The notes: generated by a model not told the origin, from the letters alone. DNA of 64,000 nt from Mumia sp. zg.B17 (GCF_019550915.1 NZ_JAHWCI010000008.1:310001-374000), one strand, 5' to 3'; shown: positions 8,072 through 30,204, counted from the stretch's first letter. Numbers and translations: made by a program.

Positions 8072-8074
8072 CTC

Positions 8075-8123
8075 TCCTGCGGGTGGCCGCCCGAGCCGGG
8101 GGGTCGGGCGGCCACCCGCAGGA
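8075..8123 (+). terminator. Intercistronic 20-bp hairpin between pstS and pstC
   Basis: A perfect 20-bp stem (8075-8094 with 8104-8123) and a 9-base loop start three bases after the pstS stop. There is no U-run, and pstC follows at 8157. I read it as a partial terminator or an mRNA 3'-end stabiliser that keeps pstS expression above the channel genes; which one cannot be told from sequence. Confidence 0.75.
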
Positions 8124-8156
8124 CGCTCGCCATCGTGACCACCAGAGGACCAGTCC

Positions 8157-9122
8157 GTGAGCGAAACCTCCACCCCGTCCCCGTCGCGGGACACCACCGA
8201 CACCGGGCCGGCTTCCGGCCGGGTCGGCGACCGCGTGTTCCTCGGGATCTCCCGTGGCGCCGCCCTGACGATCCTGGCCATCCTCGCCGGCGTCGCGATC
8301 TTCCTGACCGCCGAGGGGATCCCGGGGATCACCGCATCGCCCGACGAGGTCAAGAGTGGCGAGTCGTTCCCGTCGTTCGTGCTCCCCCTGGTCTTCGGAA
8401 CCCTGTGGAGCGCAACGCTCGCGCTGGTCATCGCAGTCCCCCTCGCCGTCGCGGTCGCGCTGTTCGTCACCTACTACGTCCCTCGCCGGCTCGGGCAGGC
8501 CCTCGGGTACGTCATCGACCTGCTCGCCGCCGTACCCTCCGTCGTCTTCGGCCTGTGGGGCATGCGGGTCCTCGCCGGACAGCTCGTCGGCCCGTACGAG
8601 TGGCTCGAGAGGACCCTGGGTTTCCTGCCCTTCTTCGCCGGGCCGGCATCGGCCACGGGGCGGACGATCCTCACCGCGGCGGTCGTCCTGGCCGTGATGA
8701 TCCTGCCGATCGTGACCGCGATCGCCCGGGAGGTCTTCCGCCAGACACCGGTCCTCCTGGAGGAGGCGGCGCTCGCGCTCGGCGCGACCCGCTGGGAGAT
8801 GATCCGTACCGTCGTCCTGCCTCACGGCCGCTCCGGCATGATCGGCGGCGCGATGCTCGGACTCGGCCGCGCTCTGGGCGAGACGATGGCGGTCGCGATG
8901 GTCCTCTCGGCCTCCGGTGTCATCACCCTCGACCTCATCAGCTCGACGAACCCGAGCACGATCCCCGCCAACATCGCGCTCCAGTTCAACGAGGCCTCCG
9001 GTCTGACGGTGAACGCGCTGATCGCCTCCGGCCTGGTGCTGTTCGTCATCACCTTCGCCGTCAACTTCGCCGCCCGCGCCGTCGTGAACCGGCGCAAGGA
9101 GTTCTCGGGAGCACACGCATGA
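8157..9122 (+). CDS. pstC: Phosphate ABC transporter permease PstC
   Basis: 321 residues from GTG 8157, with AGAGGA nine bases upstream. It has about six membrane segments and the permease EAA-type loop EEAALALGATRWEMIRTVVLPHGRSG that contacts the ATPase. Family signatures include LAAVPSVVFGLWGMRVLAG and LGRALGETMAVAMVL. It pairs with PstA to form the transmembrane phosphate channel. The first 40 residues are hydrophilic and cytoplasmic. Its stop overlaps the pstA start by ATGA. Confidence 0.93.
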   Translation: MSETSTPSPSRDTTDTGPASGRVGDRVFLGISRGAALTILAILAGVAIFLTAEGIPGITASPDEVKSGESFPSFVLPLVFGTLWSATLALVIAVPLAVAVALFVTYYVPRRLGQALGYVIDLLAAVPSVVFGLWGMRVLAGQLVGPYEWLERTLGFLPFFAGPASATGRTILTAAVVLAVMILPIVTAIAREVFRQTPVLLEEAALALGATRWEMIRTVVLPHGRSGMIGGAMLGLGRALGETMAVAMVLSASGVITLDLISSTNPSTIPANIALQFNEASGLTVNALIASGLVLFVITFAVNFAARAVVNRRKEFSGAHA

Positions 9123-10228: not shown

Positions 10229-11091
10229 GCATGCGATCAGTACTCCGTGACTCCGTCCCGACGCCGGTTCCGACTCCGGCCGTCACCGCCGCGGGCGGTG
10301 GATCCCGTCGGCCGGCGATCGGCATCGACGTCGAGGACCTCGACATCTACTACGGCGACGTCCAGGCGGTGCGCGGGGTGACACTGGCGATCCCGGCCCA
10401 GTCGGTGACCGCCGTGATCGGCCCGTCGGGCTGCGGCAAGTCGACGTTCCTGCGGTCGTTGAACCGCATGCACGAGGTCGCACCCGGCGCCCGGGTCGAC
10501 GGCACCGTCCGGGTGGACGGGCGCGACCTGTACGCCGCCGGCGTCGACCCGGTGCTCGTGCGCCGGGAGATCGGGATGGTCTTCCAGCGACCGAACCCGT
10601 TCCCGACGATGTCGATCCGTGACAACGTGCTGGCCGGCGTACGCCTCAACGGCGGACGGCTCAAGAAGGACGCCGCCGAGGCGGTCGTCGAGCGGTCGCT
10701 GCGCGGCGCGAACCTCTGGGACGAGGTCAAGGACCGGCTCAACCGCCCCGGCGCCGGGCTCTCCGGCGGACAGCAGCAGCGGCTCTGCATCGCCCGCGCG
10801 ATCGCGGTCGAGCCGCAGGTGCTCCTCATGGACGAGCCGTGCTCCGCCCTCGACCCGATCTCCACCAGCGCCATCGAGGACCTGATCGGGCAGCTCAAGA
10901 GCGAGTACACGATCGTCATCGTCACGCACAACATGCAGCAGGCGGCGCGGGTGTCGGACGAGACCGCCTTCTTCAACCTCGCGGGGGTGGGTGAGCCGGG
11001 TCAGCTCGTCGAGTCGGGAGCGACGACGAAGATCTTCTCCAACCCCGACAACCCGTCGACCGAGGCCTACATCACGGGGCGCTTCGGCTGA
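10225..11091 (+). CDS. pstB: Phosphate ABC transporter ATP-binding protein
   Basis: 288 residues from ATG 10225. All ABC motifs are intact: Walker [10 protein letters not shown] (residues 66-74), Q-loop [17 protein letters not shown], signature [16 protein letters not shown], Walker [14 protein letters not shown] and the H-loop [13 protein letters not shown]. The Q-loop sequence with NPFP is specific to PstB. About 30 extra N-terminal residues precede the domain. It is the last gene of pstSCAB, followed by a strong terminator. No phoU lies next to it, unlike in E. coli. Confidence 0.95.
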
Positions 11092-15280: not shown

Positions 15281-15292
15281 CCCGGTTCTGGG

Positions 15293-15365
15293 TGGGCCCC
15301 CAGGGGATCGAACCCTGAACCCGCGGATTAAAAGTCCGCTGCTCTGCCGATTGAGCTAGAGGCCC
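15293..15365 (-). tRNA. tRNA-Lys (anticodon TTT)
   Basis: A 73-base tRNA on the - strand. The acceptor stem pairs GGGCCTC with GGGGCCC (one T-G wobble); the D arm holds CTCAATCGGCAGAG; the anticodon stem is GCGGA/TCCGC with loop CTTTTAA, giving anticodon TTT; the T arm has GGTTCGATCC within CAGGG/CCCTG. The discriminator base is A. CCA is not encoded, as usual in actinobacteria. Confidence 0.95.
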
Positions 15366-15500: not shown

Positions 15501-16409
15501 ATGCCCACCGTCCTCGTCTCCGGCGCCGGCGGTCCGGCAGGGTCCTCGCTCGGCCAGCAGCTCGCCGGTCGTCTCGTCCGCGGCGAGGAGACGGTCTCCG
15601 TCGGTGTCGACCTGACGGCCCTCGACGGTACGGCGTTCTCGCGTACGGCGGCCGTGGCGCGCGCCGACGATCCCGCGTACGCACCGACCATGCGCTCGAT
15701 CGTCGAGCAGGTCCGTCCCGACCTCGTGATCCCGACCGTGCAGGACGAGCTCCCGCAGGTCTCGGTGCTGCGCGACGTCCTCGCCGCCGCTGCGGCGCCC
15801 GGCGCCTCGGTGGTGGTCGCCGGAGCGCTCGCGTCCGCGCTGGCCGCGGACAAGCTCCTCACGATGTGGACCCTTGCGGCCGCCGGGGTTCCGGTCCCCG
15901 CCCACGCCGCCGCCTCGGAGCTCGACGACACCGCGGCAGCCGTCGCCTGGGCGGGCGGGCCGGTCGTGGTCAAGCCCCGCGTGTCGCGGGGCGGGCGCGG
16001 GGTCACCGTCGTCGAGAACCCGTCCGACCTGGACTGGTCCGACGCCGGCGCGGGCTGGATCGTCCAGGGCTTCGTCGACGGCCCCGAGTACGCGCCACAG
16101 GTCTACCGGTCGCCGCTGACCGGACGGTCGACCGTCGTCGTGCTCGAGAAGACCCTCCTCAAGGAAGGGCGGGTGGGCAACGCCGCCGGTGCGATCCGCG
16201 CCCCAGACGGTCAGGCGACCGAGGTCGCCGCGGTCGCCGTCGCCGCGGTCGAGGCTCTCGACCTCGTCGGGCCCGTGGACATGGACGTACGTCTCGACTC
16301 GACCGGCTCGCCGTACGTCCTCGAGGTGAACGGGAGGTTCGGGGCACTCTCCGCCCACGCACCCGAGCTGCTCGACCTCGTCCTCGACGAGTGGCTCCGT
16401 CCGCCGTGA
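15501..16409 (+). CDS. ATP-grasp enzyme (carbamoyl-phosphate-synthase-like fold)
   Basis: 302 residues from ATG 15501. An N-terminal Rossmann-like part opens with PTVLVSGAGGPAGSSLGQQL (about 2-21). The ATP-grasp core has GGPVVVKPRVSRGGRGVTVV (nucleotide-binding strand and Gly loop) and metal-ligand segments DMDVRLDSTGSPYVLEVNGR, with FG following; the closing E-x-N is the expected Mg site. Such enzymes form an acyl-phosphate and then an amide or thioester. The stop overlaps the downstream glycosyltransferase start (GTGA), so it is the first gene of a three-gene cassette that I think makes a modified surface polysaccharide. Substrate unknown. Confidence 0.8.
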   Translation: MPTVLVSGAGGPAGSSLGQQLAGRLVRGEETVSVGVDLTALDGTAFSRTAAVARADDPAYAPTMRSIVEQVRPDLVIPTVQDELPQVSVLRDVLAAAAAPGASVVVAGALASALAADKLLTMWTLAAAGVPVPAHAAASELDDTAAAVAWAGGPVVVKPRVSRGGRGVTVVENPSDLDWSDAGAGWIVQGFVDGPEYAPQVYRSPLTGRSTVVVLEKTLLKEGRVGNAAGAIRAPDGQATEVAAVAVAAVEALDLVGPVDMDVRLDSTGSPYVLEVNGRFGALSAHAPELLDLVLDEWLRPP

Positions 16410-17686
16410 CCGCCGTTCTCGAGGGGATCGCCGTTGTCGTGGCCCTGACGGTCCTCGCAACCGGGGCCGTCCGCCTCGCCCTCGTCCCCTTCGCCGTGGT
16501 GTTCGAGCTGCGCCGCCCCGGACACGACGACACCGTGCCGCTCGTGGGGACGACGATCTTCGAGGAGCCGCCGTTCGTCAGCGTGATCGTGCCGGCCTAC
16601 AACGAGGGGGTCGTCCTCGACAACTGCCTGCGCTCGATCGCACGCAGCACCTACGACCGCTACGAGATCATCTGCGTCGACGACGGGTCGACCGACGACA
16701 CGTTCACGAGGGCCACGGCCGTCGCGGCCGACGTCCCGCAGCTGACCGCGCTGACCCAGGCCAACCGGGGCAAAGGGGCCGCCCTCAACACCGGGATCGC
16801 GCACTCGAAGGGATCCGTGCTCCTTCTGGTGGACGCCGACGGCCTCTTCCAGCCGCACACCATCGACCGGATGCTCAAGGGATTCCGAGACGACCGCGTC
16901 GGCGCCGTCTGCGGCAACGACCGGCCCGTGAACCTCGACCGGGTTCAGACCAGGTTCCTCGCGCTCATCAGCCACCTCGGGACGGGCCTCATGCGTCGCA
17001 GTCTCGACGAGCTGCACTGCCTCCCGATCGTCTCGGGCAACATCGGGGCGTACCGACGAGAGGTGCTCGACAAGGTCGGGGCCGTCCGTGAGGACACCGT
17101 CGGCGAGGACCTCGAGTTGACGTGGCGGGTGTACGGCGCCGGCTACCGCGTCGCATTCGCCCCCCACGCCCTCCTCTACGCAGAGTCGCCGTCGACACCC
17201 CGCGCCCTGTGGCGACAACGGGTCCGGTGGGCGCGCGGCCTCCTGCAGGTCACTCGACTGCACTGGCGCATGATCGCCAACCTTCGATTCGGGGCGTTCG
17301 GGGCCTACCTGCTGTTCAACACCGTCACGCAGATCGTCGTGCCGTTCCTGCAGGTCCTCGGTGTTCTCGTCATCGCTGCACCGGCGCTGACCGGCGAGAT
17401 CGCCACCCCGCCGACGGAGCTGTGGGACCTGTTGATCCTCGTCGGCCTGCCCGGCTCCGTCGCGCTGCTGATCCTCGCTGTCGCTCTCGACCGCACACCG
17501 CGTGATCTCGAGTACGGGTGGACACTCCTGGCCTGGCCTCTCTACTCCAGCGTGATGACGCTGGTGATGATCCGCGCTGTCTGGCTCGAGCTGAAGGGGG
17601 CCGAGAACCGATGGAACAAGCTCGAACGCACGGGGACGGTGTCGGTGGCCGGCCTCGTCGACGACCCTCCTTGGACCTCCTCCTGA
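16406..17686 (+). CDS. Processive family 2 glycosyltransferase (poly-GlcNAc/hyaluronan-synthase-like)
   Basis: 426 residues from GTG 16406. An N-terminal membrane segment precedes the GT2 domain: VIVPAYNEGVVLDNCLRSI, ICVDDGSTDDT, a DAD metal motif in LLLVDADGLFQ, the acceptor-site GEDLELTWR and the Q-x-x-R-W-type motif RQRVRWARGLLQ that marks processive synthases. Three or four further membrane segments follow (about 300-410), as in PgaC, NodC and cellulose-synthase relatives that extrude the polymer. Activated sugar is probably UDP-GlcNAc, by family analogy only. It sits between an ATP-grasp enzyme and a membrane-anchored hydrolase-like protein. Confidence 0.88.
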   Translation: MTAVLEGIAVVVALTVLATGAVRLALVPFAVVFELRRPGHDDTVPLVGTTIFEEPPFVSVIVPAYNEGVVLDNCLRSIARSTYDRYEIICVDDGSTDDTFTRATAVAADVPQLTALTQANRGKGAALNTGIAHSKGSVLLLVDADGLFQPHTIDRMLKGFRDDRVGAVCGNDRPVNLDRVQTRFLALISHLGTGLMRRSLDELHCLPIVSGNIGAYRREVLDKVGAVREDTVGEDLELTWRVYGAGYRVAFAPHALLYAESPSTPRALWRQRVRWARGLLQVTRLHWRMIANLRFGAFGAYLLFNTVTQIVVPFLQVLGVLVIAAPALTGEIATPPTELWDLLILVGLPGSVALLILAVALDRTPRDLEYGWTLLAWPLYSSVMTLVMIRAVWLELKGAENRWNKLERTGTVSVAGLVDDPPWTSS

Positions 17687-18834
17687 CCAGCCTCGTCGTG
17701 ATCGGCACAGTGGTCGCGCTGTTCGTCACACGCCCCTGGTCCGATGACGACTCCTCACCCCGGTCGCCGCTGCGGGCGGCCAGCGCCCCTGAGGAGACCC
17801 GCTCGATCAGCATCGACTTCGGCATCGTCACTGATCCGGACACCGACTGGGACGAGGTCTCGGAGCGGCTGGCCTCGGTCGACGCGACGACGGTGGAGGT
17901 CAACGCCGGTCGGGTCGAGTTCACGGCGTTCGACTGGGCTGCTCACCCGGAGGCAGCGGCCGAAGCGGGGACCGACCACGTCGCCGTCGCCGCGCGCGGA
18001 CTGCGCGAGTCCCCCGAAGGAGGAACGCGTCAGCTGAACCTCATCGTCGACGCGTTCGTCCCGAAGTGGATCCAGGAGGACCCCTCGATCGCGGGAGTCG
18101 GTGCGGACGGGAAGCGGTCACGCTATGCGGCCTCGGCCTGGCAGCTGGCCAGGGGTGAGGTCGGCGACCGCCTGGTGGACTACGTCGAGGCGCTCGCCGA
18201 GCGGTACGACCCGCCGTTGATCGAGATCACGGAGCTGCTGATCTTCGACACGTTCGGCGCCGACGATCTCGCGCTCTACCGTGAGATGACCGGCCAGGCG
18301 GACTGGCCCCGTACGTCGACCGGTGCCCTCGACACCTCGGCGCCCGAGCTGGGGCGCTGGCGGTCCCAGGTCCTTGCCGGCCTGTTGAGCCGGATGCGAA
18401 CGGCGCTCGACCGCGTCCAGGAGGACGGCGCTCCCATCGAGCTCGGCCTGGACGTACGGGTCAACTGGGACGACCCCGCTGCCGGCCGGCCCGACAGCGG
18501 ACAGGACTACGAGATCCTGATCGCCGAGGTGCCTGAGCTGCGCCTCCAGCTGTGGACCTACATCGGCAGGCCCGCGCGGCCCGCCGGCGACATCGAGACC
18601 CTGACCGCGGCGTTGCGGGCAGCGGGCTACGGCATGTCGCGGCTCATGCCCTCCATCGGGTTGTGGACCGCGGGGCCGCAGGTGCCCCTTCCCCAGACCA
18701 TCAGCGCCGACAGGCTCGGTGAGGCGGTGCGGTCGGCCGTGACCAACGGGATCACGGCGGTGAACGTCACTCCCTACTCTCTGATCACTCCTGAGCAGTG
18801 GGAGGCCCTGGCGCAGGCGTGGGCGGGGGGCTGA
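17611..18834 (+). CDS. Membrane-anchored glycoside-hydrolase-like protein of the polysaccharide cassette
   Basis: 407 residues from ATG 17611, which lies inside the end of the glycosyltransferase gene. A basic N-terminus and one membrane helix (LDLLLTSLVVIGTVVALFVT, about 29-48) put the rest outside. The outer domain looks like a TIM barrel of the PgaB/GHL hydrolase kind: SIDFGIVTDPDTDWDEVSER, then NLIVDAFVPKWIQEDPSIAG, PLIEITELLIFDTFGADDLA and YGMSRLMPSIGLW. In PgaB a similar domain works on poly-GlcNAc. The assignment is by pattern and context, not by a proven catalytic pair. Its last 50 bases overlap the opposite-strand kinase gene. Confidence 0.6.
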   Translation: MEQARTHGDGVGGRPRRRPSLDLLLTSLVVIGTVVALFVTRPWSDDDSSPRSPLRAASAPEETRSISIDFGIVTDPDTDWDEVSERLASVDATTVEVNAGRVEFTAFDWAAHPEAAAEAGTDHVAVAARGLRESPEGGTRQLNLIVDAFVPKWIQEDPSIAGVGADGKRSRYAASAWQLARGEVGDRLVDYVEALAERYDPPLIEITELLIFDTFGADDLALYREMTGQADWPRTSTGALDTSAPELGRWRSQVLAGLLSRMRTALDRVQEDGAPIELGLDVRVNWDDPAAGRPDSGQDYEILIAEVPELRLQLWTYIGRPARPAGDIETLTAALRAAGYGMSRLMPSIGLWTAGPQVPLPQTISADRLGEAVRSAVTNGITAVNVTPYSLITPEQWEALAQAWAGG

Positions 18835-20572
18835 CGTCCGGCAGGTCGACCGTGATCGACGTCCCCACGCCCGGTGCACTCTCGATCGACATCGTCCCGC
18901 CGTGGGCGTCGACGATCGCCTTCACGATCGACAGGCCGAGGCCGAGACCGCGGACACGCAGACGTCGTGCGGTGTCGGCGCGGTAGAAGCGCTCCGTCAC
19001 GTGAGCGACGTCGCCAGCGCTCATGCCCGGGCCGTCGTCGGCAACCGTGAGCCGCACCCCCGTCTCACCGGAGCCCGTCCTGAGCGGGCGGAGCGTCACC
19101 CGGACCGTCGCGCCGCGCTCGGAGGCCTTGACGGCGTTGCTGACGAGGTTCTCGACGACCTGGCCGAGCCGCTCGGCATCGGACAGGAGGGGGACTGCGG
19201 CCGGTGCGTCGACCGTGAGGACGATACCTGCCGCGTCCGCGGCAGGAAGGAGGTTCGCGACCGAGCGCTGAACGACCTGTACGGCATCTGTCGGCCCGGC
19301 GTCGAGCGCGAAGGTCCCGGCGACCATGCGCACGCTGACCAGCAGGTCCTCGACGAGCCGCAGGAGGCGCTGCGCGTTCCGCTCGATCACGGCGACGGAT
19401 CGGCTCTGGTCGGGCGTGAGCTCGCCTTCGTCGGACCGCAGGATCTCGACGTAGCCCATGATCGACGCGAGCGGGGTGCGGAGCTCGTGGCTGACCAGCC
19501 CGATGAACTCGTCCTGAAGCCGCTCGGCCTCCCGGCGCTGGGTGAGATCCGTCGCGATGATCAGGTAGCCGTACGGTCGACCGTCGTCGGAATGCGGGCG
19601 TCGCGTCACCGTGACGTCTGCTGGCACGGTCGTGCCGTCGGGGCGGGCCAGGACCCAGTCACGGTGCTCCGGGCGTCCTTCTGCCGCCTCTCCGAGGACC
19701 ACATGCAGCAGGTCGGCAGAGGTCGTACCGTACCCGCGCTCGACCGCCGCGGAGCGCAGCTCGTCGGCCTGGAAGATCTCCGTCACCGGGGCCCCGAGGA
19801 GAGTGGCCTCAGCGCTGCCGAACAGGCGTCGCGCTCCCGGGTTGGCGAAGACGATCGTGCCGTGCTCGTCCAGGGCGATGATCGCCTGCTCCGTGGCGGC
19901 CTCGATCACGCTCGCGAGGAGCGCACGGGACTCCTCGAGTCGCTGGGTGAGGGCCTCGAGACGGTCGCGGTTCGCCTCGAGGCGACTCAACGTCACGTCC
20001 TGCTCGCGTCGCAGCGCTTCCAGGGCGGCGGTCCGCTCTCGGAGCTGCCGTGTGGTGGACGACAACCAGGCGGCCACCACGAACGTGCACCCTGTCACGA
20101 CGAGGACATGGAGCCCCGGCGAAGCCCCGCGATAGGCCACGAGGCCGGTGAACGCCCCGAACGCCGTCAGTCCCATGGCAGCCACGATGGCGATGACGAC
20201 TCCGCGCGACCCAGGCTGGATCGCCAGGTTGGCGACCGGCACGAAGTAGAGCACGACCGTGACCAGCTCAAGACTCTGAGTCACCCCGTACTGGAACAGG
20301 GTCAACGAGACGAGCTGCACGAGGGGGAAGACGTAGTTCCACGGGCTCGGCCAGTGGTGCCGCCGACCGTAACCCGCGACGAGCTGCGTCGACAGGACCA
20401 GCGTCGCCGAAATGACGACGAGGAGGGGGGCGTCGAACGGGCGACGCTGCAGCGCGGCGTCCAGCAGCACGGCAAGGTAGAGCAGGGTGAACGGCAGCTC
20501 GCGGGATGCGACCGTCACCGGCTCGAGCCCGAGGCGCCCGAACCACTTCCGGCTGCTCGCGGACGGGCTCAC
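18785..20572 (-). CDS. Membrane PAS histidine kinase
   Basis: 595 residues from GTG 20572, overlapping the regulator stop (GTGA). The N-terminus has about six membrane segments (about 27-170) and no large external domain, so it probably senses something in or at the membrane. A coiled coil follows (about 172-225), then a PAS domain (about 225-345), then HisKA with phospho-acceptor His362 in FIGLVSHELRTPLASIMGY, and an HATPase with N box (VENLVSNAVKASERG), G1 (DDGPGM) and G2 (LGLGLSIVKAIVDAHGG). It is co-transcribed with, and most likely phosphorylates, the receiver-deacetylase fusion just upstream. Confidence 0.92.
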   Translation of the reverse strand: MSPSASSRKWFGRLGLEPVTVASRELPFTLLYLAVLLDAALQRRPFDAPLLVVISATLVLSTQLVAGYGRRHHWPSPWNYVFPLVQLVSLTLFQYGVTQSLELVTVVLYFVPVANLAIQPGSRGVVIAIVAAMGLTAFGAFTGLVAYRGASPGLHVLVVTGCTFVVAAWLSSTTRQLRERTAALEALRREQDVTLSRLEANRDRLEALTQRLEESRALLASVIEAATEQAIIALDEHGTIVFANPGARRLFGSAEATLLGAPVTEIFQADELRSAAVERGYGTTSADLLHVVLGEAAEGRPEHRDWVLARPDGTTVPADVTVTRRPHSDDGRPYGYLIIATDLTQRREAERLQDEFIGLVSHELRTPLASIMGYVEILRSDEGELTPDQSRSVAVIERNAQRLLRLVEDLLVSVRMVAGTFALDAGPTDAVQVVQRSVANLLPAADAAGIVLTVDAPAAVPLLSDAERLGQVVENLVSNAVKASERGATVRVTLRPLRTGSGETGVRLTVADDGPGMSAGDVAHVTERFYRADTARRLRVRGLGLGLSIVKAIVDAHGGTMSIESAPGVGTSITVDLPDVSPPPTPAPGPPTAQE

Positions 20573-21600
20573 CCGTGCTCCTGACCGTGTTCGGAGGTGA
20601 CGAACTCGGCGGCACGCACGGTCTCCAGCGGCTCCACCTCACGGGCAGGGCTGAAGCGCGACCAGTAACGAGCGGTCGCACGCACGAGGTCCGGCGCCAT
20701 GTAGTCGCGGTGGCTCTGCGACGCGTACGCCGCCAGCATGCGCAGCTTGGTCTCGACGAAGCCCTCGACGTCGATGAAGCGATTCGGTCTGAAGTCGACG
20801 GTGCTCGACGGGCTCTCGAAGCACCAGAGGCCGGGCACCGACCGCGCCGCCACCTCGACGGCCTGGAACACCGCGCGGTGGTCGAGATGCCGGTCGTGGG
20901 GGCCGTGGGTGTAGACACGCTGCGGCTCCACGTCCGCCACGACCTCCTCGATCGCGGCGGTCACCCCGCTGGCCGGCTCGATGCGGGTGTCCGCGAACGG
21001 GAGGTGGACGAGGCGCGCACCGATCACGGCGGCGGCGTCGGCGGCCTCCCTGCGACGGACGGCGGTGTCCCCTCCCACCCCACCGCGAGACAACGTGAGG
21101 ATGACGACCTGGTCCCCGGCGGCCGCGTGTGCGGCGAGCGTGGCCCCGACCCCGATCTCGACGTCGTCGGGATGGGCGCCGACGGCGAGCACGGTGATGT
21201 GTGACCGAGTGCGGGCCTCTCTGCTCTCGGAGGCGAGCTCCTGGGCTCGTGAGGCGAGGTCCGCGGGCGCGATCGGCTTGACCAGGAACTCGTCCGCGTC
21301 GTTGCGCAGCGCCTCGACGGCGTAGGAGACGACGCCGTGCGCGGTGAGGATGATGACGGGGACGCCAGGGGCGAGCTCACGCACCATGGGCAGGATGTCG
21401 AGACCCGAGCGACCGGGGAGCTCGATGTCGCTCACCACCACGTCGAACGATCCCACCTGGAGCGCGGCGAGCGCCTCGTCCGCGTCGCCCGCGACCACCA
21501 CCTCCATCTCGGCGAACCGCTGAAGCGCGATGCGAGCAAACTCGGCCGCATCGGGCTCGTCCTCGATCACCAGTGCGCGCAGCGGGTTGTCGACGTCCAC
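20569..21600 (-). CDS. Response regulator with PIG-L-type deacetylase output (receiver-deacetylase fusion)
   Basis: 343 residues from GTG 21600, chosen for GAGGGGG just upstream (a TTG at 21633 would add 11 residues). Residues 1-125 are a receiver: acidic pocket EDE, phospho-acceptor Asp58 in VSDIELPGRSG, switch Thr in ILTAHG and Lys108 in VKPI. Residues ~138-343 are a PIG-L/LmbE deacetylase: zinc motif AHPDD (His143, Asp145, Asp146) and a second His cluster HGPHDRHLDH (235-241). There is no DNA-binding domain, so phosphorylation should act on the enzyme. PIG-L enzymes remove N-acetyl groups from GlcNAc conjugates. It faces the polysaccharide cassette. Confidence 0.88.
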   Translation of the reverse strand: MDVDNPLRALVIEDEPDAAEFARIALQRFAEMEVVVAGDADEALAALQVGSFDVVVSDIELPGRSGLDILPMVRELAPGVPVIILTAHGVVSYAVEALRNDADEFLVKPIAPADLASRAQELASESREARTRSHITVLAVGAHPDDVEIGVGATLAAHAAAGDQVVILTLSRGGVGGDTAVRRREAADAAAVIGARLVHLPFADTRIEPASGVTAAIEEVVADVEPQRVYTHGPHDRHLDHRAVFQAVEVAARSVPGLWCFESPSSTVDFRPNRFIDVEGFVETKLRMLAAYASQSHRDYMAPDLVRATARYWSRFSPAREVEPLETVRAAEFVTSEHGQEHG

Positions 21601-21723
21601 GAGGCCCCCTCGATGGTCCCGGTCTGTCAGCAAACCTAGACCGAGGGCAACGCCTGCGCGAGCGGCGGCGAGGCCCCTGAGCGCCTAGGCTGCCTCCGTT
21701 GTCCGGCAGAGGGAGACCACGTC

Positions 21724-22980: not shown

Positions 22981-23009
22981 CCGCGTTCAGTCCCGAGTGC
23001 TGAACGCGG
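22981..23009. terminator. Terminator between SGNH hydrolase and isomerase
   Basis: A perfect 10-bp stem (22981-22990 with 23000-23009) and 9-base loop, between convergent genes. It includes the last codons and stop of the isomerase gene. Confidence 0.65.
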
Positions 23010-23994
23010 CGTCGAACGCGGCCTCGGGGGCGTCGAAGAGGTTGCGCTTGACGAACGCGAGGGCCTCCGGAGCCCCGAGGAGCCGATCCATGCCCGCGTC
23101 CTCCCACTCGATCGAGACCGGGCCGTCGTAGCCGATCGTGTTGAGCATCCGGAAGCACGCCTCCCACGGGACGTCGCCGCGACCGGTCGACACGAAGTCC
23201 CAGCCGCGCCGCGGATCGGCCCACGGGAGGTGCGATCCGAGACGGCCGTTGCGTCCGTTGCCGACCTGCTTCTTCGCGTCCTTGCAGTCGACGTGATAGA
23301 TCCGGTCCTTGAAGTCCCACAGGAACCCGAGCGGGTCGAGGTCCTGCCAGACGAAGTGCGACGGGTCCCAGTTGAGTCCGAACGCCTCGCGGTGTCCGAT
23401 CGCCTCGAGCGTGCGGACGGTGGTCCAGTAGTCGTACGCGATCTCGCTCGGGTGCACCTCGTGGGCGAAGCGGACACCCTCGGCGTCGAACACGTCGAGG
23501 ATCGGGGTCCACCGGTTCGCGAAGTCGTCGTACCCGGCGTCGACGAGCGCCGCCGAGGCAGGCGGGAACATCGCGACGTACTTCCAGATCGACGACCCGG
23601 TGAACCCGACGACCGTGTCGACACCGAGCATCCGCGCAGCGCGAGCGGTGTTCTTCATCTCCTCGGCCGCACGCTGACGGACCCCTTCGGCATCGCCGTC
23701 GCCCCAGATCCGGTCGGGCAGCATGTCCCGGTGCCGCTGGTCGATCGGGTCGTCGCAGACCGCCTGGCCCTTGAGGTGGTTGGAGATCGCGTAGACCTTC
23801 AGCCCGTACTTGTCGAGGAGGTCGAGCTTGGCCTGGACGTAGCCGTCCTCCTCCACCGCCGCCCACGGGTCGAAGTGATCGCCCCAGCAGGCGATCTCGA
23901 GGCCGTCGTAGCCCCACCCCGACGCCAGCCTGGCGACCTCCTCGAACGGCAGGTCGGCCCACTGGCCGGTGAAGAGCGTGATCGGTCGCGTCAT
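22987..23994 (-). CDS. Sugar phosphate isomerase/epimerase (xylose-isomerase-like TIM barrel)
   Basis: 335 residues, AP-endonuclease-2/xylose-isomerase-like TIM barrel. Recognisable pieces are [14 protein letters not shown], metal-ligand strands [15 protein letters not shown] and [13 protein letters not shown], then [14 protein letters not shown] and VSIEWEDAG, which give the Glu/Asp/His/Glu divalent-metal site of IolE/IolH-type enzymes. Its start overlaps the oxidoreductase stop (ATGA). As the last gene of the ABC-oxidoreductase operon it probably isomerises or epimerises a keto-sugar or inositol-like intermediate; the exact substrate is not evident. Confidence 0.85.
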
Positions 23995-25190
23995 GGTGCC
24001 TCTCCTTCGTGCGGAACCTTCTGCTGACGAGAGTCGTCCTCGGAGCTGGCCTCCACGGCAGCCAGCACACGCTGCACCGCGAGCCCGTCGGCGAACGAGG
24101 GCTGCGGCTGCTCACCGGCGGCGATGGCCTTGACGAGGTCGACGACCTGATGGGTGAAGCCGTGCTCGTAGCCGAGCCCGTGACCTGCCGGCCACCAGGC
24201 GGCGACGTACGGGTGGGTGGGTTCGGTGACGACGATCCTCCGGAAGCCGGCTGTCTCGGCGGAGTCGGAGGCGTCGTACAGGTGGAGGACGTTCATCTCC
24301 TCGAAGTCGAACGCGAGCGCTCCACCGGACCCGCTGACCTCGATCCGGAACGCGTTCTTGCGGCCGGTGGCGAAGCGGGTCGCCTCGAAGACGCCGAGCG
24401 CACCGTTGTCGAAGCGGGCGGTGAACGCGGTCGCGTCGTCGACGGTGACGGGGCCGCGTTCGGCCGCGGCGCTCCCGGTGCCTCCCAGCGTGCCGTGGTC
24501 ACCCGCGACCGGACGCGTGTCCACGAAGGTCTGAAGGACCCCGCTGACGGCGCTGATCCGTGCCCCGGTCACGAACTGGGCCGCGTCGACGATGTGCGCA
24601 CCGATGTCGCCGAGCGCGCCCGAGCCGGCGAGCGACTTGTCGAGCCGCCAGGTGAGCGGGCTGTCGGGGTCGACCAGCCAGTCCTGGAGGTACTGCGCGC
24701 GGATGTGGCGGATGGTGCCCAGGCGCCCCTCCTCGACGAGCCGCCGGGCGAGCGACAACGCCGGCGTACGGCGATAGGTGAAGCCGACCATCGCGAACAC
24801 CCCGTCCTGCGCGGCCTCCGCGGCGACGCCCGCCATCAGCTCGGCCTCGTCGACGGTGTTGGCCAGCGGCTTCTCGCACAGCACGTGCTTGCCGGCGCGG
24901 AGCGCCGCGACGGCAATCTCGGCGTGCGTGCTGCCGGGTGTGCAGACGTCGACGACGTCGATGTCGTCGCGCTCGACCAGCGCGTGCCAGTCGGTCTCGA
25001 CCGACTCCCATCCGAAGCGGTCGGCGACCGCCCGGGCGGCTGCCGCGTCACGCCCGCACAGGGCGCGCAGACGCGGCGTGAGCGGGAGGTCGAAGAAGGC
25101 CGGAGCGGTGCGCCAGGCCTGCGAGTGCGCGGCGCCCATGAAGGCGTAGCCGACCTGGCCGACGCGAAGCTCACGGGGCGTTTCTGTCAT
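23991..25190 (-). CDS. Gfo/Idh/MocA family NAD(P)-dependent sugar/polyol oxidoreductase
   Basis: 399 residues from ATG 25190; the frame is open to 25259, but that stretch is Pro/Arg-rich and holds a hairpin. The N-terminal Rossmann fold shows [38 protein letters not shown] and the family EKP motif in [16 protein letters not shown]. The C-terminal domain includes [20 protein letters not shown], with the Asp and His expected at the catalytic centre. It oxidises a hydroxyl of a sugar or polyol such as inositol. It sits between the solute-binding protein and the isomerase in one operon. Confidence 0.88.
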
Positions 25191-25225
25191 GGGGTTCCTT
25201 CGTCCGAGGGGTGGTGCGAGGAGCC

Positions 25226-25259
25226 GTGGTGCGCCCGGCGAGGGCGCAGGGCGCACCAC
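25226..25259 (-). terminator. Hairpin after the solute-binding-protein gene
   Basis: An 11-bp perfect stem (25226-25236 with 25249-25259) and 12-base loop in the 75-base gap between the binding-protein stop and the oxidoreductase start. No T-run. As after pstS, it may boost binding-protein mRNA relative to downstream genes. Confidence 0.55.
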
Positions 25260-25265
25260 CGTCGG

Positions 25266-26312
25266 TCAGGACTCGAACGCCGAGTCCATGTAGTCGTCGA
25301 CGTTGTCCTTCGTCACGATCGGGGCCGCCAGCTGGATGACGCGCGGCACCTCCACCTCGGCGAGGTCCGACATCGAGCGGCCCTGCGCGATGAGTCGTGC
25401 CAGCTTGATGCCGTCGGCACCCTGGGTCGACGGATAGATGACGGTCGCCCTGAGGACCGTATCGTCAGCCTCGATCGACCGCATCACGTTCGCCGAGCCG
25501 GCCCCGCCGACCATGACGAACTCGTCCCGCCCGGCGTTGTCGATCGCCGCCAGCACGCCGACGCCCTGGTCGTCGTCGTGGTTCCACAGGAAGTCGATCT
25601 TGGGTGCGGCCTGGAGCAGGTTCGCGGCGGCGCGCTCACCGGACTCGACGGTGAACTCCGCCGCGACCCGGTTGGAGACCTTCAGACCGCAGTCCTTCAA
25701 CGCGTCAGCGAACCCGCGCGAACGGTCCTGGGTCAACGGCAGGGAGTCGATGCCGGCGATCTCTGCGACCACCGCGTCCTTCTTGCCGCCGGCCTCCTCG
25801 CAGATGTAGCGACCAGCCGAGACCCCCATGCCGTAGTTGTCGCCGAGAACGGTCGAACGCGCTGCGTTCGGCGAGTCGAACTCGCGGTCGACGTTGACCA
25901 CCGGGATCCCCGCCTCCATCGCCCGCGTGGCAACGTCGGTCATCGCCGCACCGTCGAACGGGAGGAGGACGATCGCGTCGACCTTGTCGTTGATGAAGGT
26001 CTCGACCTGGGAGATCTGCAGGTTGACGTCGTTGGTGCCCTCGGCGTTGATCAGCTCGACGTCGTCGAACGCCTCCGCCTGCTTCACGGCTGCGGAGGTG
26101 ATCGCCCCCATCCAACCGTGGTCGGCCGCGGGGGCCGAGAAACCGATGCGCACGGTGTCGCCGGTCTCGGCGTTGTCGCCGGCTCCGGCGTTGGCGACGC
26201 TCTCGGTGTCGTCGTCGCCGGAGCTGTTGGTGCAGGCGGTCAAGGTCAGCGACGTTGCGGCGAACACGCCGGCGATCGCCAGCAGCCGTCGGCGCGGGGT
26301 GGTGGTGGACAT
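25266..26312 (-). CDS. Sugar ABC transporter substrate-binding lipoprotein (ribose/inositol type)
   Basis: 348 residues from ATG 26312, with GAGGAG five bases upstream. A lipoprotein signal peptide ends in LTAC with Cys27 lipidated, followed by a Ser/Asp/Glu-rich linker. The mature part is a periplasmic-binding-protein type 1 fold of the RbsB group: TVRIGFSAPAADHGWMGAIT, the DAIVLLPFDGAAMTDVATRA segment, GIPVVNVDREF and DFLWNHDDDQGVGVLAAI. It captures a monosaccharide or cyclitol for the permease and ATPase encoded upstream. The ligand is not readable by eye. Confidence 0.9.
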   Translation of the reverse strand: MSTTTPRRRLLAIAGVFAATSLTLTACTNSSGDDDTESVANAGAGDNAETGDTVRIGFSAPAADHGWMGAITSAAVKQAEAFDDVELINAEGTNDVNLQISQVETFINDKVDAIVLLPFDGAAMTDVATRAMEAGIPVVNVDREFDSPNAARSTVLGDNYGMGVSAGRYICEEAGGKKDAVVAEIAGIDSLPLTQDRSRGFADALKDCGLKVSNRVAAEFTVESGERAAANLLQAAPKIDFLWNHDDDQGVGVLAAIDNAGRDEFVMVGGAGSANVMRSIEADDTVLRATVIYPSTQGADGIKLARLIAQGRSMSDLAEVEVPRVIQLAAPIVTKDNVDDYMDSAFES

Positions 26313-26330
26313 GCCGTCTCCTCGGTGGGG

Positions 26331-27341
26331 TTAGGTGCTGCGGTTCGCCAGCCGCTGCTGGAGCAGCACAGCGACGACGATGATCACGCCCTTGGCGACG
26401 GCCTGGACGGACGTCGACAGGTTGTTGAGCGTGAAGACGTTGGTGAGCGTGGTGAAGATGAGGACGCCGAGCAGCGTGCCGACCACCGTGCCGCGGCCGC
26501 CGCTGAGGAGCGTCCCTCCGATGACGACCGCCGCGATGGCGTCGAGCTCCCACATGAGTCCGTGGGTGGAGGACCCGGTCTGCGTCCGTGACATGAGCAT
26601 CACGGCGGACACGCCACAGGTGGCGCCGAGCAGGGCGTAGAGGTAGACGGTGTGCCTCTGGACCTTGATACCGGCCAGGCGTGCGGCCTCGACGTTGCCG
26701 CCCACGGCGAACGTGCGGCGCCCGAACGTCGTGCGGTTGAGGAGGAACCAGCCGAGCACCACGATCACCGCGAAGACGTAGACGATCACCGGCACACCCA
26801 GCGGCCGGGCTCCGAGCGCGTCGCGGAACGCCTCGTCGCGGACGATCTGGGTCTTGCGGTCGGCGATGATCTCGGCGAGCCCTCGAGCGCTCGCCAGCAT
26901 CGCGAGGGTGGCGATGAATGGCACGATCTTGCCGTAGGCGATGAGCACTCCGTTGATGACGCCGCACGCGATGCCCACGCCGACCGCCGTCGTGACGATG
27001 ACGATCCAGCCGACGTCCTCGGCCATCGCCTGGGTGCCGGTGGTCGACGCCCACACCGAGGCCAGGGCGACGATCGCACCCACGGAGAGGTCGATGCCTC
27101 CGCCGGTGATGACGAAGGTCATCCCGATCGCGACCACGCCGATCGCGGAGGCGAGGCTGAGGACGGTGATGATGTTGTTGGTGCTCGCGAAGCGGTCGCC
27201 CGCCGTGACGAGGCCGACGACGCAGAGCGCGACCAGGGCGACCACGAGGCCGAGGTTGCGGGCGATCCCGAGGGACCGTGTCCGCGTCTCGGGAGCAGCC
27301 GCGGTCTCCTGCGTGCTCCCGGTCACCGATGAGGTACTCAC
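26331..27341 (-). CDS. Sugar ABC transporter permease (RbsC type)
   Basis: 336 residues from GTG 27341, overlapping the ATPase stop (GTGA). Eight to ten membrane segments in the BPD_transp_2 (RbsC/XylH) pattern, with FVITGGGIDLSVGAIVALAS, AVGVGIACGVINGVLIAYGK and, near the end, GLMWELDAIAAVVIGGTLLSGGRGTVVGT, which contacts the ATPase. The homodimer forms the sugar channel. Eighteen bases separate it from the binding-protein gene. Confidence 0.9.
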   Translation of the reverse strand: MSTSSVTGSTQETAAAPETRTRSLGIARNLGLVVALVALCVVGLVTAGDRFASTNNIITVLSLASAIGVVAIGMTFVITGGGIDLSVGAIVALASVWASTTGTQAMAEDVGWIVIVTTAVGVGIACGVINGVLIAYGKIVPFIATLAMLASARGLAEIIADRKTQIVRDEAFRDALGARPLGVPVIVYVFAVIVVLGWFLLNRTTFGRRTFAVGGNVEAARLAGIKVQRHTVYLYALLGATCGVSAVMLMSRTQTGSSTHGLMWELDAIAAVVIGGTLLSGGRGTVVGTLLGVLIFTTLTNVFTLNNLSTSVQAVAKGVIIVVAVLLQQRLANRST

Positions 27342-28888
27342 GCGGCGTCACCTTTCGATTCGTTGCCGGTCGGTTCGTTGCCGGTCGGTTCGTTGCCGGA
27401 GAGGATGCGGTCGAGCACGGCGTGGGCGTCGAGATCGTCCGCCGGACCGGCGTGCACGATGCGGCCGTCGGCCACGACCATGACCCTGTCCGAGAGCCCG
27501 AGGACCTCGTCGATGTCGCTGGAGACGACGATCACGGCGACCCCGTCGTCGGCGAGCCGGCGGATCAAGCCGTAGATCTCGCTGCGTGCGCCGACGTCCA
27601 CACCCCTGGTCGGCTCGTCCAGCAGGAGGACGCGGCACGATCGCAGCAGCCACCGGGCGAGGACGACCTTCTGCTGGTTGCCGCCCGAGAGTGTCCTGGT
27701 GACGCGGTCCGGGTCGTCGGGGCGCAGGTCGACCGAACGCGCGGCAGCGTGCGCCGCCGTACGCTCCGCGGACTCACGCGTGACCCCCAGCCGGGAGAAG
27801 CGCGGGAGGGTGCCGAGGGAGATGTTGCGGTAGACCGCCTCGTCGAGCACCAGCCCCTGCGACTTGCGCTCCTCGGGACAGAGCCCGAGGCCCGCACCGA
27901 CCGCGACATCGACCGACCCGGGACGCAGGCGCCGTCCGTCGACGGTGACCGAGCCACGCTGAGCTCGCCGTGCGCCGTACACGGTCTCGACGATCTCGCT
28001 GCGTCCCGCACCGACGAGCCCGGCGAAGCCGAGGATCTCGCCGGGCCGGACCTCGAACGAGACGTCCTCGAACTCACCCTCGCGACCGAGCCCTTCGACG
28101 ACGAGCAGCGGGTCGGCGTCGGGCAACGGCGTCGTACGGCGGGGGAACTCGGCCGAGACGTCGCGGCCGGTCATCAGGGTGATCAGCTCGGCGGTCGGGG
28201 TCTCGCCTGCCGGCAGGTCGGAGGCGACCGTACGTCCGTCCTTCAGCACGGTGAGCCGGTCGCCGATGCGGCGGATCTCCTCGAGGCGGTGGGAGATGTA
28301 GATGATGGCCTGGCCGGACGCACGGAGCTCCTCGATGACCCGGAACAGCCCGTCGACCTCGTCGGGGTCGAGGACAGCGGACGGCTCGTCCATGACGATC
28401 ACGCGCGCCTGACGTGAGAGCGCGCGTGCCATCGACACGATCTGCTTGCCTGCTGCCGACAGGCTGCCTGTCTCGCGGGACGGCCGGATCTCGGGGTGAC
28501 CGAGTGAGGTCAGCAGGTCGCGTGCGGCCCGGTGCGAGTCACCGACGCGGGAGAAGCCGAGACGCGTCTTCTCGTGGCCGAGGAAGATGTTGTCGGCCAC
28601 GCTCAGGCCGTCGACGAGGTCGAGCTCCTGATAGATCGTCGCGATGCCGGCCGCGAGCGCGGCTTGCGGGTCCCCGAAGGTGACGGCGTCCCCGTCCATC
28701 ACGATCTCGCCCTCGTCGGGCGTGTAAGCACCCGCCAGGACCTTGATCAGCGTGGACTTGCCCGCGCCGTTCTGCCCGAGGAGGCAGTGGACCTCTCCCG
28801 CACGCACCACCAGGTCGACGCCGTCCAACGCGCGAACGCCAGGGAACTCCTTGACGATCCCGGTCAGCTGGAGCAGAGGCTGCGACAT
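27338..28888 (-). CDS. Sugar ABC transporter ATPase with two nucleotide-binding domains
   Basis: 516 residues from ATG 28888, which lies seven bases after a -10 element, so the mRNA is probably leaderless (an in-frame GTG at 28906 overlaps the -10). It is an RbsA/MglA-type tandem ATPase. Domain 1 has Walker A GQNGAGKST, signature LSAAGKQ and Walker B VIVMDEPSAVLDP; the second half has a degenerate Walker A (GLVGAGRSE), signature LSGGNQQKVVLARWL and Walker B VLLLDEPTRGVD. The C-terminal tail is a short repeat (TGNEP units) from a 15-bp tandem repeat. First gene of the operon. Confidence 0.92.
   Translation of the reverse strand: MSQPLLQLTGIVKEFPGVRALDGVDLVVRAGEVHCLLGQNGAGKSTLIKVLAGAYTPDEGEIVMDGDAVTFGDPQAALAAGIATIYQELDLVDGLSVADNIFLGHEKTRLGFSRVGDSHRAARDLLTSLGHPEIRPSRETGSLSAAGKQIVSMARALSRQARVIVMDEPSAVLDPDEVDGLFRVIEELRASGQAIIYISHRLEEIRRIGDRLTVLKDGRTVASDLPAGETPTAELITLMTGRDVSAEFPRRTTPLPDADPLLVVEGLGREGEFEDVSFEVRPGEILGFAGLVGAGRSEIVETVYGARRAQRGSVTVDGRRLRPGSVDVAVGAGLGLCPEERKSQGLVLDEAVYRNISLGTLPRFSRLGVTRESAERTAAHAAARSVDLRPDDPDRVTRTLSGGNQQKVVLARWLLRSCRVLLLDEPTRGVDVGARSEIYGLIRRLADDGVAVIVVSSDIDEVLGLSDRVMVVADGRIVHAGPADDLDAHAVLDRILSGNEPTGNEPTGNESKGDAA
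27359..27403. repeat. Three 15-bp tandem repeats in the ABC ATPase tail
   Basis: Units at 27359-27373, 27374-27388 (identical, TTCGTTGCCGGTCGG) and 27389-27403 (last four to five bases differ). They encode a GNEPT repeat at the protein's C-terminus, beyond the conserved domain, and look like recent slippage growth. Confidence 0.85.
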
Positions 28889-28895
28889 GCGCGTG

Positions 28896-28925
28896 ATGCT
28901 AGTCACACCTAATGACGGCCGTCAA
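28896..28925 (-). promoter_or_regulatory. Promoter of the ABC sugar operon with palindromic operator
   Basis: On the - strand, -35 TTGACG (28920-28925) and -10 TAGCAT (28896-28901) are 18 bases apart. The perfect 12-bp palindrome TGACGGCCGTCA (28913-28924) overlaps the -35, a good place for a repressor, likely the divergent ROK protein. Confidence 0.65.
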
Positions 28926-28943
28926 CCAAAAGTCAGGGTTTTG

Positions 28944-28978
28944 CCGACAGGCTTCTGTCGGGCTTGACTACATAAGTC
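28944..28978 (+). promoter_or_regulatory. Second dyads upstream of the ROK gene
   Basis: CCGACAG-GCTT-CTGTCGG (28944-28961) is a perfect 7-bp inverted repeat, and TTGACT (28964-28969) lies in a looser dyad GACT-ACATA-AGTC (28966-28978). TTGACT could be the -35 of the ROK gene, with GACTAC near 28988 as a weak -10. Possible autoregulatory sites. Confidence 0.45.
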
Positions 28979-28998
28979 GACGTGGGAGACTACGGCCC

Positions 28999-30204
28999 AT
29001 GGATTCGTTCGCGCCTCAGACGGGCTCGGCGTCTGCCGCCAGCGCGGTCTTCCAGCTCATGCGCGACGGGCAGGCACGGACGAAGGCCGAGATCGCGGAG
29101 GCCACCTCGTTGGCGCGCTCCACCGTCTCGGCGCGGCTCGACCTCCTCCTCGCGGCTGGGCTCCTGATGCCCGTCGGGGAGGCAGCCTCCACCGGAGGGC
29201 GTCCGCCGGCGCGCTTCGCCATGAACACCGACTCGTACGCCGTGCTGGCGGTCGATCTCGGCGCCAGCCACGCGACGGTCGCGCTGTCCGACCTCGCGGG
29301 CACGGTGCTGGGTGAGGCCACCGTCACCAGCGACATCACCGAAGGCCCCACGGTCGTGCTCGACAGGGTCGTCGAGCTCGCGAACGAGCTGCTCTCGACG
29401 CTCGGCATGAGGTCGTCCGCCCTCGCGGGCATCGGGGTCGGCGTCCCCGGCCCCGTCGAGCACTCGACCGGCCGACCCGCGAACCCGCCGATCATGCCGG
29501 GCTGGCACGGCTTCGACATCCCCGGCTACCTGGCCGCGGCCTTCCCCGTCCGTGTCCGGGTGGACAACGACGTCAACGTGATGGCGCTCGGCGAGCACAC
29601 CGCTCACTGGCCGGAGACCGACGACCTCCTCTACGTCAAGGTCGCCACCGGCATCGGATCGGGCATCATCTCCAACCGTCGACTCGTCCGCGGCGCCCTG
29701 GGCACCGCGGGCGACCTGGGGCACGTCCAGGTCAGCGGCAGGGGTGAGGACGTCAGCTGCCGCTGCGGCAACCTCGGATGTCTCGAGGCAGTCGCCGCCG
29801 GCCCTGCGATCGCCAAGCAGCTCGCCGAGCTCGACATCGGGGTCGAGACCCCGCGTGACGTGGTCGCGGCCGTCGAGCGCGGCGAGATGGAGGCGGTGCG
29901 GGCCGTCCGCGAGGCCGGGCGCGCGATCGGCAGCGTCCTCGCCACCTGCGTGAGCCTGCTCAATCCCGCCGTGGTCGTGGTGGGCGGTTCCCTGTCGGCG
30001 ACCGGGGAGTATCTCCTCGCCGGGATCCGCGAGGTCGTCTACCAGCGCTCCCTGCCGCTGGCCACGCACCAGCTGCGCATCGTCAGCTCGTCGCTGCACG
30101 GGCGGGAGGCCGTGCTGGGCGCAGCCGCCATGGTGCTCGAGGACGTGCTGTCACCGCAGTCGGTCGACGGGCTGGTCGAGCAGCGCAGCCGAGCCAGCGC
30201 CTGA
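28999..30204 (+). CDS. ROK-family transcriptional regulator of the sugar ABC operon
   Basis: 401 residues from ATG 28999 (GGGAG ten bases upstream). The N-terminal winged helix covers about 15-75 (QARTKAEIAEATSLARSTVS). The ROK sugar-kinase-like domain follows: VLAVDLGASHATVALSDLAG phosphate loop, GVGVPGPVEHSTG, DNDVNVMALGEH and the zinc signature CRCGNLGCLEA. Such proteins are sugar-responsive repressors (NagC/XylR type). Divergent from the ABC operon with palindromes between, so it most likely represses that operon until the sugar is present. Confidence 0.9.
   Translation: MDSFAPQTGSASAASAVFQLMRDGQARTKAEIAEATSLARSTVSARLDLLLAAGLLMPVGEAASTGGRPPARFAMNTDSYAVLAVDLGASHATVALSDLAGTVLGEATVTSDITEGPTVVLDRVVELANELLSTLGMRSSALAGIGVGVPGPVEHSTGRPANPPIMPGWHGFDIPGYLAAAFPVRVRVDNDVNVMALGEHTAHWPETDDLLYVKVATGIGSGIISNRRLVRGALGTAGDLGHVQVSGRGEDVSCRCGNLGCLEAVAAGPAIAKQLAELDIGVETPRDVVAAVERGEMEAVRAVREAGRAIGSVLATCVSLLNPAVVVVGGSLSATGEYLLAGIREVVYQRSLPLATHQLRIVSSSLHGREAVLGAAAMVLEDVLSPQSVDGLVEQRSRASA

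Follow-up and report, generated by a model that had tools for sequence, protein, structure and literature searches.

A stretch of 64,000 nucleotides from Mumia sp. zg.B17 (GCF_019550915.1, NZ_JAHWCI010000008.1:310001-374000; hereafter the window, with positions counted from its first letter) contains a gene for a response regulator whose output domain is an enzyme. The encoded protein (20569-21600, minus strand; 343 amino acids) joins a receiver domain to a PIG-L/LmbE-type de-N-acetylase that, judging from its residues, appears catalytically intact. On balance, we favor the view that this protein is a phospho-regulated cytosolic deacetylase, paired with a membrane kinase of its own and serving specifically a synthase-dependent pathway for an amino-sugar exopolysaccharide. 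The domain architecture, the conserved catalytic and phospho-residues, the composition of the locus, its co-inheritance and the kinase linkage were observed directly. A preliminary description of the window had given the coordinates of the gene correctly and left its strand unstated.

A receiver fused to a PIG-L-type enzyme

The open reading frame of the fusion extends to an upstream TTG (20569-21633, minus strand; 354 amino acids). The GTG at 21600, preceded by the Shine-Dalgarno-like GAGGGGG, is the likelier start on sequence grounds. The receiver domain spans residues 10-119 (21244-21573) and matches Pfam PF00072 with an E-value of 4.5e-25 (88.4 bits, above the cut-off of 30.2). Its residues are complete: the acidic pocket E13, D14 and E15, the phospho-acceptor D58 (codon at 21427-21429), T86 and K108. 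The enzyme follows in the same frame, where residues 138-251 (20848-21189) match PF02585 at E 2.7e-25 (89.8 bits, above the cut-off of 28.2) and the PIG-L fold runs on to about residue 330. By homology, the HPDD motif (residues 143-146; 21163-21174) would supply His/Asp metal ligands and the Asp general base, and the HxDH within HGPHDRHLDH (residues 232-241; 20878-20907) would supply the third metal ligand and the catalytic His. The enzyme residues H143, D145, D146, H232, D236, H238, D240 and H241 are all present. Residue 239, which is not a metal ligand, is Leu in the window protein (HLDH) and Gln in 98 of 101 homologous loci (HQDH). The preliminary description had listed the EDE pocket, Asp58, the Thr, Lys108, AHPDD and HGPHDRHLDH, and each is found as it was described. 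It had also stated that a DNA-binding domain is absent; a Pfam scan of the fusion returned no domain besides Response_reg and PIG-L.

The AlphaFold2 model of the fusion has a mean pLDDT of 94.2 and a pTM of 0.83. In this model, the last receiver helix is lengthened (residues 112-133) and reaches into the enzyme. Foldseek matched the model to receiver structures, and the solved structures closest to the enzyme part are N-acetylglucosamine (GlcNAc) deacetylases, namely BshB/BC1534 (the best match, Foldseek E 1.1e-13) and N,N'-diacetylchitobiose deacetylase. Because receivers are cytosolic and no signal peptide was seen in the fusion, the enzyme must be cytosolic as well.

The preliminary description had made its reading depend on conservation of Asp58 and the zinc residues. 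Both domains are carried by all 62 aligned homologues, which come from many phyla, and D58, H143, D145, D146, H232, H238, D240 and H241 are invariant among them. Across a broader collection of 101 loci, 98 retain D58 and 90 retain Lys108 (four have Arg), and HPDD and HxDH, together with H232, H238, D240 and H241, are retained in all 101. Within the phylum the distribution is patchy, since an even sample of 396 genomes held three full-length fusions. In the Nocardioidaceae, the family of the source genome, a relative at E <= 1e-22 was present in 22 of 342 genomes. A wide scan covered 84,980 species genomes, from which the best 80 loci were taken. These include actinomycetes (Cellulomonas, Microbacterium, Leifsonia, Blastococcus, Nakamurella and others), in which the preliminary description had suggested looking, and extend well beyond them, as it had not noted, to Gamma- and Alphaproteobacteria, Burkholderiales, Myxococcota, Gemmatimonadota, Rhodothermales/Bacteroidetes and Thermoleophilia. 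Among plasmid and viral relatives, the search turned up only PIG-L proteins lacking a receiver. In a tree of the PIG-L domain, forms with a receiver or a degenerate pseudo-receiver were grouped apart from stand-alone PIG-L proteins with a local support of 0.895, a pattern consistent with a single fusion event in a tree whose rooting is weak.

The probable partner kinase and the surrounding locus

The fusion gene is followed on the minus strand by a gene (18785-20572) encoding a membrane sensor histidine kinase of 595 amino acids, identified by Pfam and transmembrane (TM) prediction. The kinase has PAS, HisKA and HATPase_c domains, the HisKA motif SHELRTP and at least four predicted TM segments. 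Its GTG start lies over the TGA stop of the fusion (GTGA, 20569-20572, minus strand), and translational coupling of the two genes is possible. In 12 of 12 genomes tested, the best genome-wide match to the window kinase was the kinase of the receiver-PIG-L locus, even where four genes separate fusion and kinase (layout II, below). A kinase gene occurs no more than 6 kb from the enzyme gene in 75 of 93 loci with an intact receiver, in one of six with a pseudo-receiver and in none of seven without a receiver (together one of 13). A Fisher test of kinase presence against receiver integrity gives a p of 4e-7, a value that takes no account of common descent or of how the loci were selected. By linkage, the window kinase is the probable phosphodonor of the fusion, in agreement with what the preliminary description had proposed.

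Downstream of the fusion-kinase pair, and convergent to it, lies an operon of three overlapping plus-strand genes (15501-18834). The preliminary description had missed this operon, and the conserved locus around the fusion is new here. Its first gene (15501-16409) encodes an ATP-grasp ligase resembling PRK12767 and carbamoyl-phosphate synthase (Pfam ATP-grasp_3, E 2.6e-14). The open reading frame extends to 15423, with the ATG at 15501 as the likely start, and the product scores 88 bits against NCBIfam NF009402 (cut-off 218). The second gene (16406-17686), whose GTG start overlaps the stop of the first (GTGA), encodes a PgaC/IcaA-like glycosyltransferase family 2 (GT2) membrane synthase (PF13641, E 4.7e-34). 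The synthase is of the multi-TM, processive type with DAD, ED and QRVRW (QxxRW) motifs. Its best NCBIfam model is TIGR03937 PgaC_IcaA (167.9 bits, under the cut-off of 422.3), followed by an XrtG-associated glycosyltransferase and then NodC. PgaC_IcaA is also the best model for a distant counterpart of the window GT2 and for a GT2 that a Salmonella plasmid encodes next to a stand-alone PIG-L.

The third gene (17611-18834) encodes a secreted or membrane-anchored TIM-barrel protein with one TM segment, characterized by alignment, AlphaFold2 and Foldseek. Its reading frame extends to 17518, the ATG at 17611 is conserved, and its 3' end overlaps that of the kinase gene by 50 nucleotides. The AlphaFold2 model (pLDDT 74.5) best matches, among solved structures, the hydrolase (GH153) domain at the C-terminus of E. 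coli PgaB (Foldseek top hit 4p7n, E 6e-11; VIA Z 25.9, root-mean-square deviation 3.3 over 319 residues), with GH42 next (Z 24.3). A profile search against PDB sequences returned nothing, Pfam returned nothing reliable, and no sequence match to PgaB was found. The C-terminal domain of PgaB cleaves deacetylated poly-N-acetylglucosamine (PNAG), and Asp474 of PgaB is catalytic (PMC5933820). No CE4 polysaccharide deacetylase was matched among the window genes scanned (11-30 kb), and scans for sigma-70 promoters and terminators gave nothing above chance.

Across 101 neighborhoods searched by tblastn, the ATP-grasp ligase was found in 77, the GT2 in 73, the kinase in 73, a PHP-domain protein in 52 and the PgaB-hydrolase-like protein in 16. 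There are three main layouts. In layout I, the window type, fusion and kinase are convergent with the ATP-grasp, GT2 and hydrolase-like genes. The hydrolase-like protein is present in 12 of the 342 family genomes, exactly the 12 with a layout I fusion locus. Layout II (Microbacteriaceae, Cellulomonas) runs fusion, ATP-grasp, PHP, GT2, a receiver in some cases, and kinase. In one such locus (L137), the PHP-domain protein sits between ATP-grasp and GT2 (7979-8695), and the kinase gene is immediately preceded by one for a stand-alone receiver (10319-10666). Layout III (Gammaproteobacteria) runs fusion, ATP-grasp, GT2 and a TPR protein, and the TPR protein of the Gram-negative relatives has weak similarity to PgaA (E 2.8e-6). 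In Kangiella, Marinicella and others (L123, L129, L133 and L142), the fusion operon is divergent to a set comprising H-NOX (a haem-NO-binding protein), a hybrid histidine kinase and a regulator, an arrangement that suggests nitric-oxide control of the polymer locus in some Gammaproteobacteria.

Some relatives have a degenerate receiver or none. Six distinct Nocardioides-type loci (L063, L064, L065, L066, L067 and L068) encode a pseudo-receiver that lacks both the acidic pocket and Lys108, with Asp58 mostly kept and the PIG-L intact. Locus L148 is that of Nocardioides szechwanensis. Several pseudo-receiver loci have another neighborhood (GT4, methyltransferase), mostly with no kinase nearby. 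Read from their residues, these pseudo-receiver proteins, which the preliminary description had missed, are a natural series in which phospho-control would have been lost. On a plasmid of Arthrobacter sp. StoSoilB13 (L150), a single operon encodes PIG-L, ATP-grasp, GT2 and hydrolase-like protein, in that order, and this PIG-L carries three TM helices and lacks a receiver. Stand-alone PIG-L proteins also occur with GT2 and ATP-grasp in two further loci of the actinobacterial phylum (L152 and L153), and E. coli and Salmonella have the arrangement PIG-L, GT2, acetyltransferase, YaiO. No kinase was detectable in the stretch of 6 kb or less that was examined around each of these receiver-less loci. 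Because the Arthrobacter operon pairs a receiver-less PIG-L with the same partners, its gene content indicates that the PIG-L is itself a pathway component and that the receiver is an added part.

Two further features of the window were noted. A tRNA-Lys(TTT) gene lies directly beside the locus (15291-15365); this is a possible integration point that could account for the patchy distribution. A sugar/polyol-type catabolic cluster of ordinary appearance occupies 22987-30204, with genes for a ROK regulator, an ABC transporter (binding protein, permease and ATPase), a Gfo/Idh/MocA oxidoreductase and a xylose-isomerase-like TIM barrel.

Proposed mechanism and its alternatives

Given the convergent operon of ATP-grasp, PgaC-like GT2 and PgaB-hydrolase-like genes, an exopolysaccharide-type pathway is the likely home of the fusion enzyme. 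An N-modified amino-sugar exopolysaccharide is the simplest reading of the PgaC-like synthase and the hydrolase-like protein. ATP-grasp enzymes of this type couple a carboxylate to an amine, so the pairing of PIG-L with ATP-grasp would take an acetyl group off and put another group on. In the proposed sequence of events, the PAS membrane kinase would autophosphorylate on cue and hand its phosphate to Asp58. The phosphorylated receiver would then alter deacetylase activity through the long helix (residues 112-133), more likely upward than downward. The deacetylase would expose an amine, either on a GlcNAc-type building block in the cytosol or on a lipid- or nucleotide-linked intermediate, and the ATP-grasp ligase would re-acylate this amine with an amino-acyl or similar group. 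The GT2 would polymerize and extrude the chain, and the secreted hydrolase-like protein would trim it outside the cell. Phosphate on D58 would in this way gate the N-modification of the polymer and perhaps also its supply. De-N-acetylation, N-ligation and polymer synthesis are drawn here from knowledge of the protein families, and we infer the phosphate gating and its direction, as well as the precise substrate and the polymer. In its fullest form the proposal is more tentative, with somewhat less than an even chance of being right: the receiver would switch the de-N-acetylase, the ATP-grasp ligase would re-ligate the amine before or during PgaC-like synthesis, and N-substitution would be set inside the cell within seconds and not by an extracellular, constitutive CE4 enzyme.

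Several points weigh against this phospho-regulated exopolysaccharide enzyme. The equivalog cut-offs of PgaC_IcaA and of the ATP-grasp model are missed, and the polymer cannot be named for that reason; PNAG was considered and the name is not given. The hydrolase-like protein has no PgaB sequence match, and GH42 comes close to PgaB in the structural comparison. Known PNAG deacetylases work extracellularly and after synthesis (PMC6307706), whereas the fusion enzyme must be cytosolic. Eighteen of the 93 intact-receiver loci have no kinase within 6 kb, some of them on truncated contigs, and four loci (L101, L102, L122 and L126) contain only fusion and kinase in the stretch seen. The Fisher test is blind to shared ancestry, and the support as a whole consists of sequence and models.

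Other explanations were weighed against the same evidence. The receiver might serve dimerization, or docking to a membrane kinase/synthase complex, with the enzyme active whenever it is made. The receiver-less Arthrobacter enzyme gives this idea some appeal, as three TM helices replace the receiver in a similar operon and both forms may require placement at the membrane; the Nocardioides-type proteins likewise keep the enzyme though their receivers have lost the acidic pocket and Lys108. We nevertheless regard a receiver without catalytic gating as unlikely, for Asp58 and Lys108 are strongly kept in the other members and the drop in kinase linkage with receiver degeneration points to phosphorylation in use. 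Marginally less probable again is that GT2 and ATP-grasp build a small GlcNAc conjugate, such as a thiol cofactor, glycolipid or secreted metabolite, on which the fusion acts. PIG-L enzymes act mostly on such conjugates (PMC4101496), and the combination of glycosyltransferase, PIG-L and ligase is reminiscent of mycothiol and bacillithiol synthesis. The best fold match is BshB and the best equivalog is the bacillithiol deacetylase BshB1 (TIGR04001), but its 87.4 bits fall below the cut-off of 182.5. The GT2 is of the processive type, with multiple TM segments and QxxRW, and is best matched by the polymer synthases PgaC and NodC; it is accompanied by a secreted hydrolase-like protein and, in Gram-negatives, by weakly PgaA-like TPR proteins. 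An ordinary mycothiol or bacillithiol deacetylase was rejected: the equivalog cut-off is missed, and the proteobacterial relatives adjoin GT2 and ATP-grasp and not thiol genes.

It is also conceivable, and in our estimate improbable, that phosphorylation acts negatively or through contacts, with the phosphorylated fusion mainly binding and controlling the GT2 and deacetylation being secondary. There is precedent in Myxococcus, where phosphorylated EpsW activates the initiating sugar transferase EpsZ by direct contact, post-translationally (PMC12802240), and layout II operons have the extra stand-alone receiver just before the kinase. The invariance of all catalytic residues argues instead that catalysis is under selection. 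The preliminary description had raised a chimeric assembly as a possibility. The fusion recurs in dozens of assemblies made independently across many phyla, which rules this out, and nothing was found in favor of an artefact or a non-functional fusion, to which we assign a negligible probability.

Relation to known systems

Receivers fused to metabolic enzymes have been described before, for example with a BcsA-like glycosyltransferase (PF13641) in Methanobacteriaceae (MTH_548; PMC5847659). Like MTH_548 and PorX, which has a PglZ output, the window protein combines a receiver with an enzyme and lacks a DNA-binding domain. The glycosyltransferase of the MTH_548-type archaeal fusions is of the same GT2 family as the synthase of the window operon. 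These archaeal fusions do not extend beyond a family or genus, whereas the present one carries a PIG-L enzyme and occurs in several phyla. The fusion joins a known class of response regulators with enzymatic output, in which the PIG-L output and the locus appear to be new. No description of the fusion or the locus was found in the open-access literature, although an earlier mention, for instance in early response-regulator domain surveys, is possible; the word "receiver" is absent from a review of the LmbE superfamily (PMC4101496). BshB, MshB and the N,N'-diacetylchitobiose deacetylases share the fold and metal-site motifs, but they are unfused and the window protein misses their equivalog scores. 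In Myxococcus xanthus, EpsW and EpsZ similarly place polysaccharide synthesis under post-translational control by a phosphorylated receiver (PMC12802240). EpsW is a single-domain regulator contacting a separate transferase, whereas the window receiver is covalently part of the deacetylase.

The locus resembles pgaABCD and icaADBC in its GT2, for which PgaC/IcaA is the best model, its secreted PgaB-hydrolase-like protein, its deacetylase and, in Gram-negative relatives, the weakly PgaA-like TPR protein. It differs in that no CE4 enzyme (PgaB/IcaB) was found in the locus and a cytosolic PIG-L under a receiver is present instead, in the added ATP-grasp ligase and in the missed equivalog cut-offs. 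The hexosamine-polymer deacetylases described in a review act extracellularly, after synthesis (PMC6307706). In E. coli, yaiS-yaiP-(acetyltransferase)-yaiO likewise places a stand-alone PIG-L, about 38-40% identical to the window domain, beside a PgaC-like GT2. The E. coli locus lacks receiver, kinase and ATP-grasp, and has an acetyltransferase, which by analogy may fill the re-acylation role of the ATP-grasp ligase, and an outer-membrane barrel. No functional study of yaiS-yaiP-yaiO was found in the open-access literature searched, and the locus described here provides a hypothesis for the function of these little-studied genes.

Deacetylation of hexosamine polymers governs biofilm adhesion, charge and antimicrobial tolerance. 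If the proposal holds, a deacetylase with its own receiver would link a sensor kinase to polymer chemistry directly, rapidly and reversibly, and cells may tune their surface polysaccharide through a phosphorylation signal, not through gene switching. The series of intact, degenerate and receiver-less forms of one enzyme is a natural experiment on the way in which receivers gain control of metabolic enzymes.

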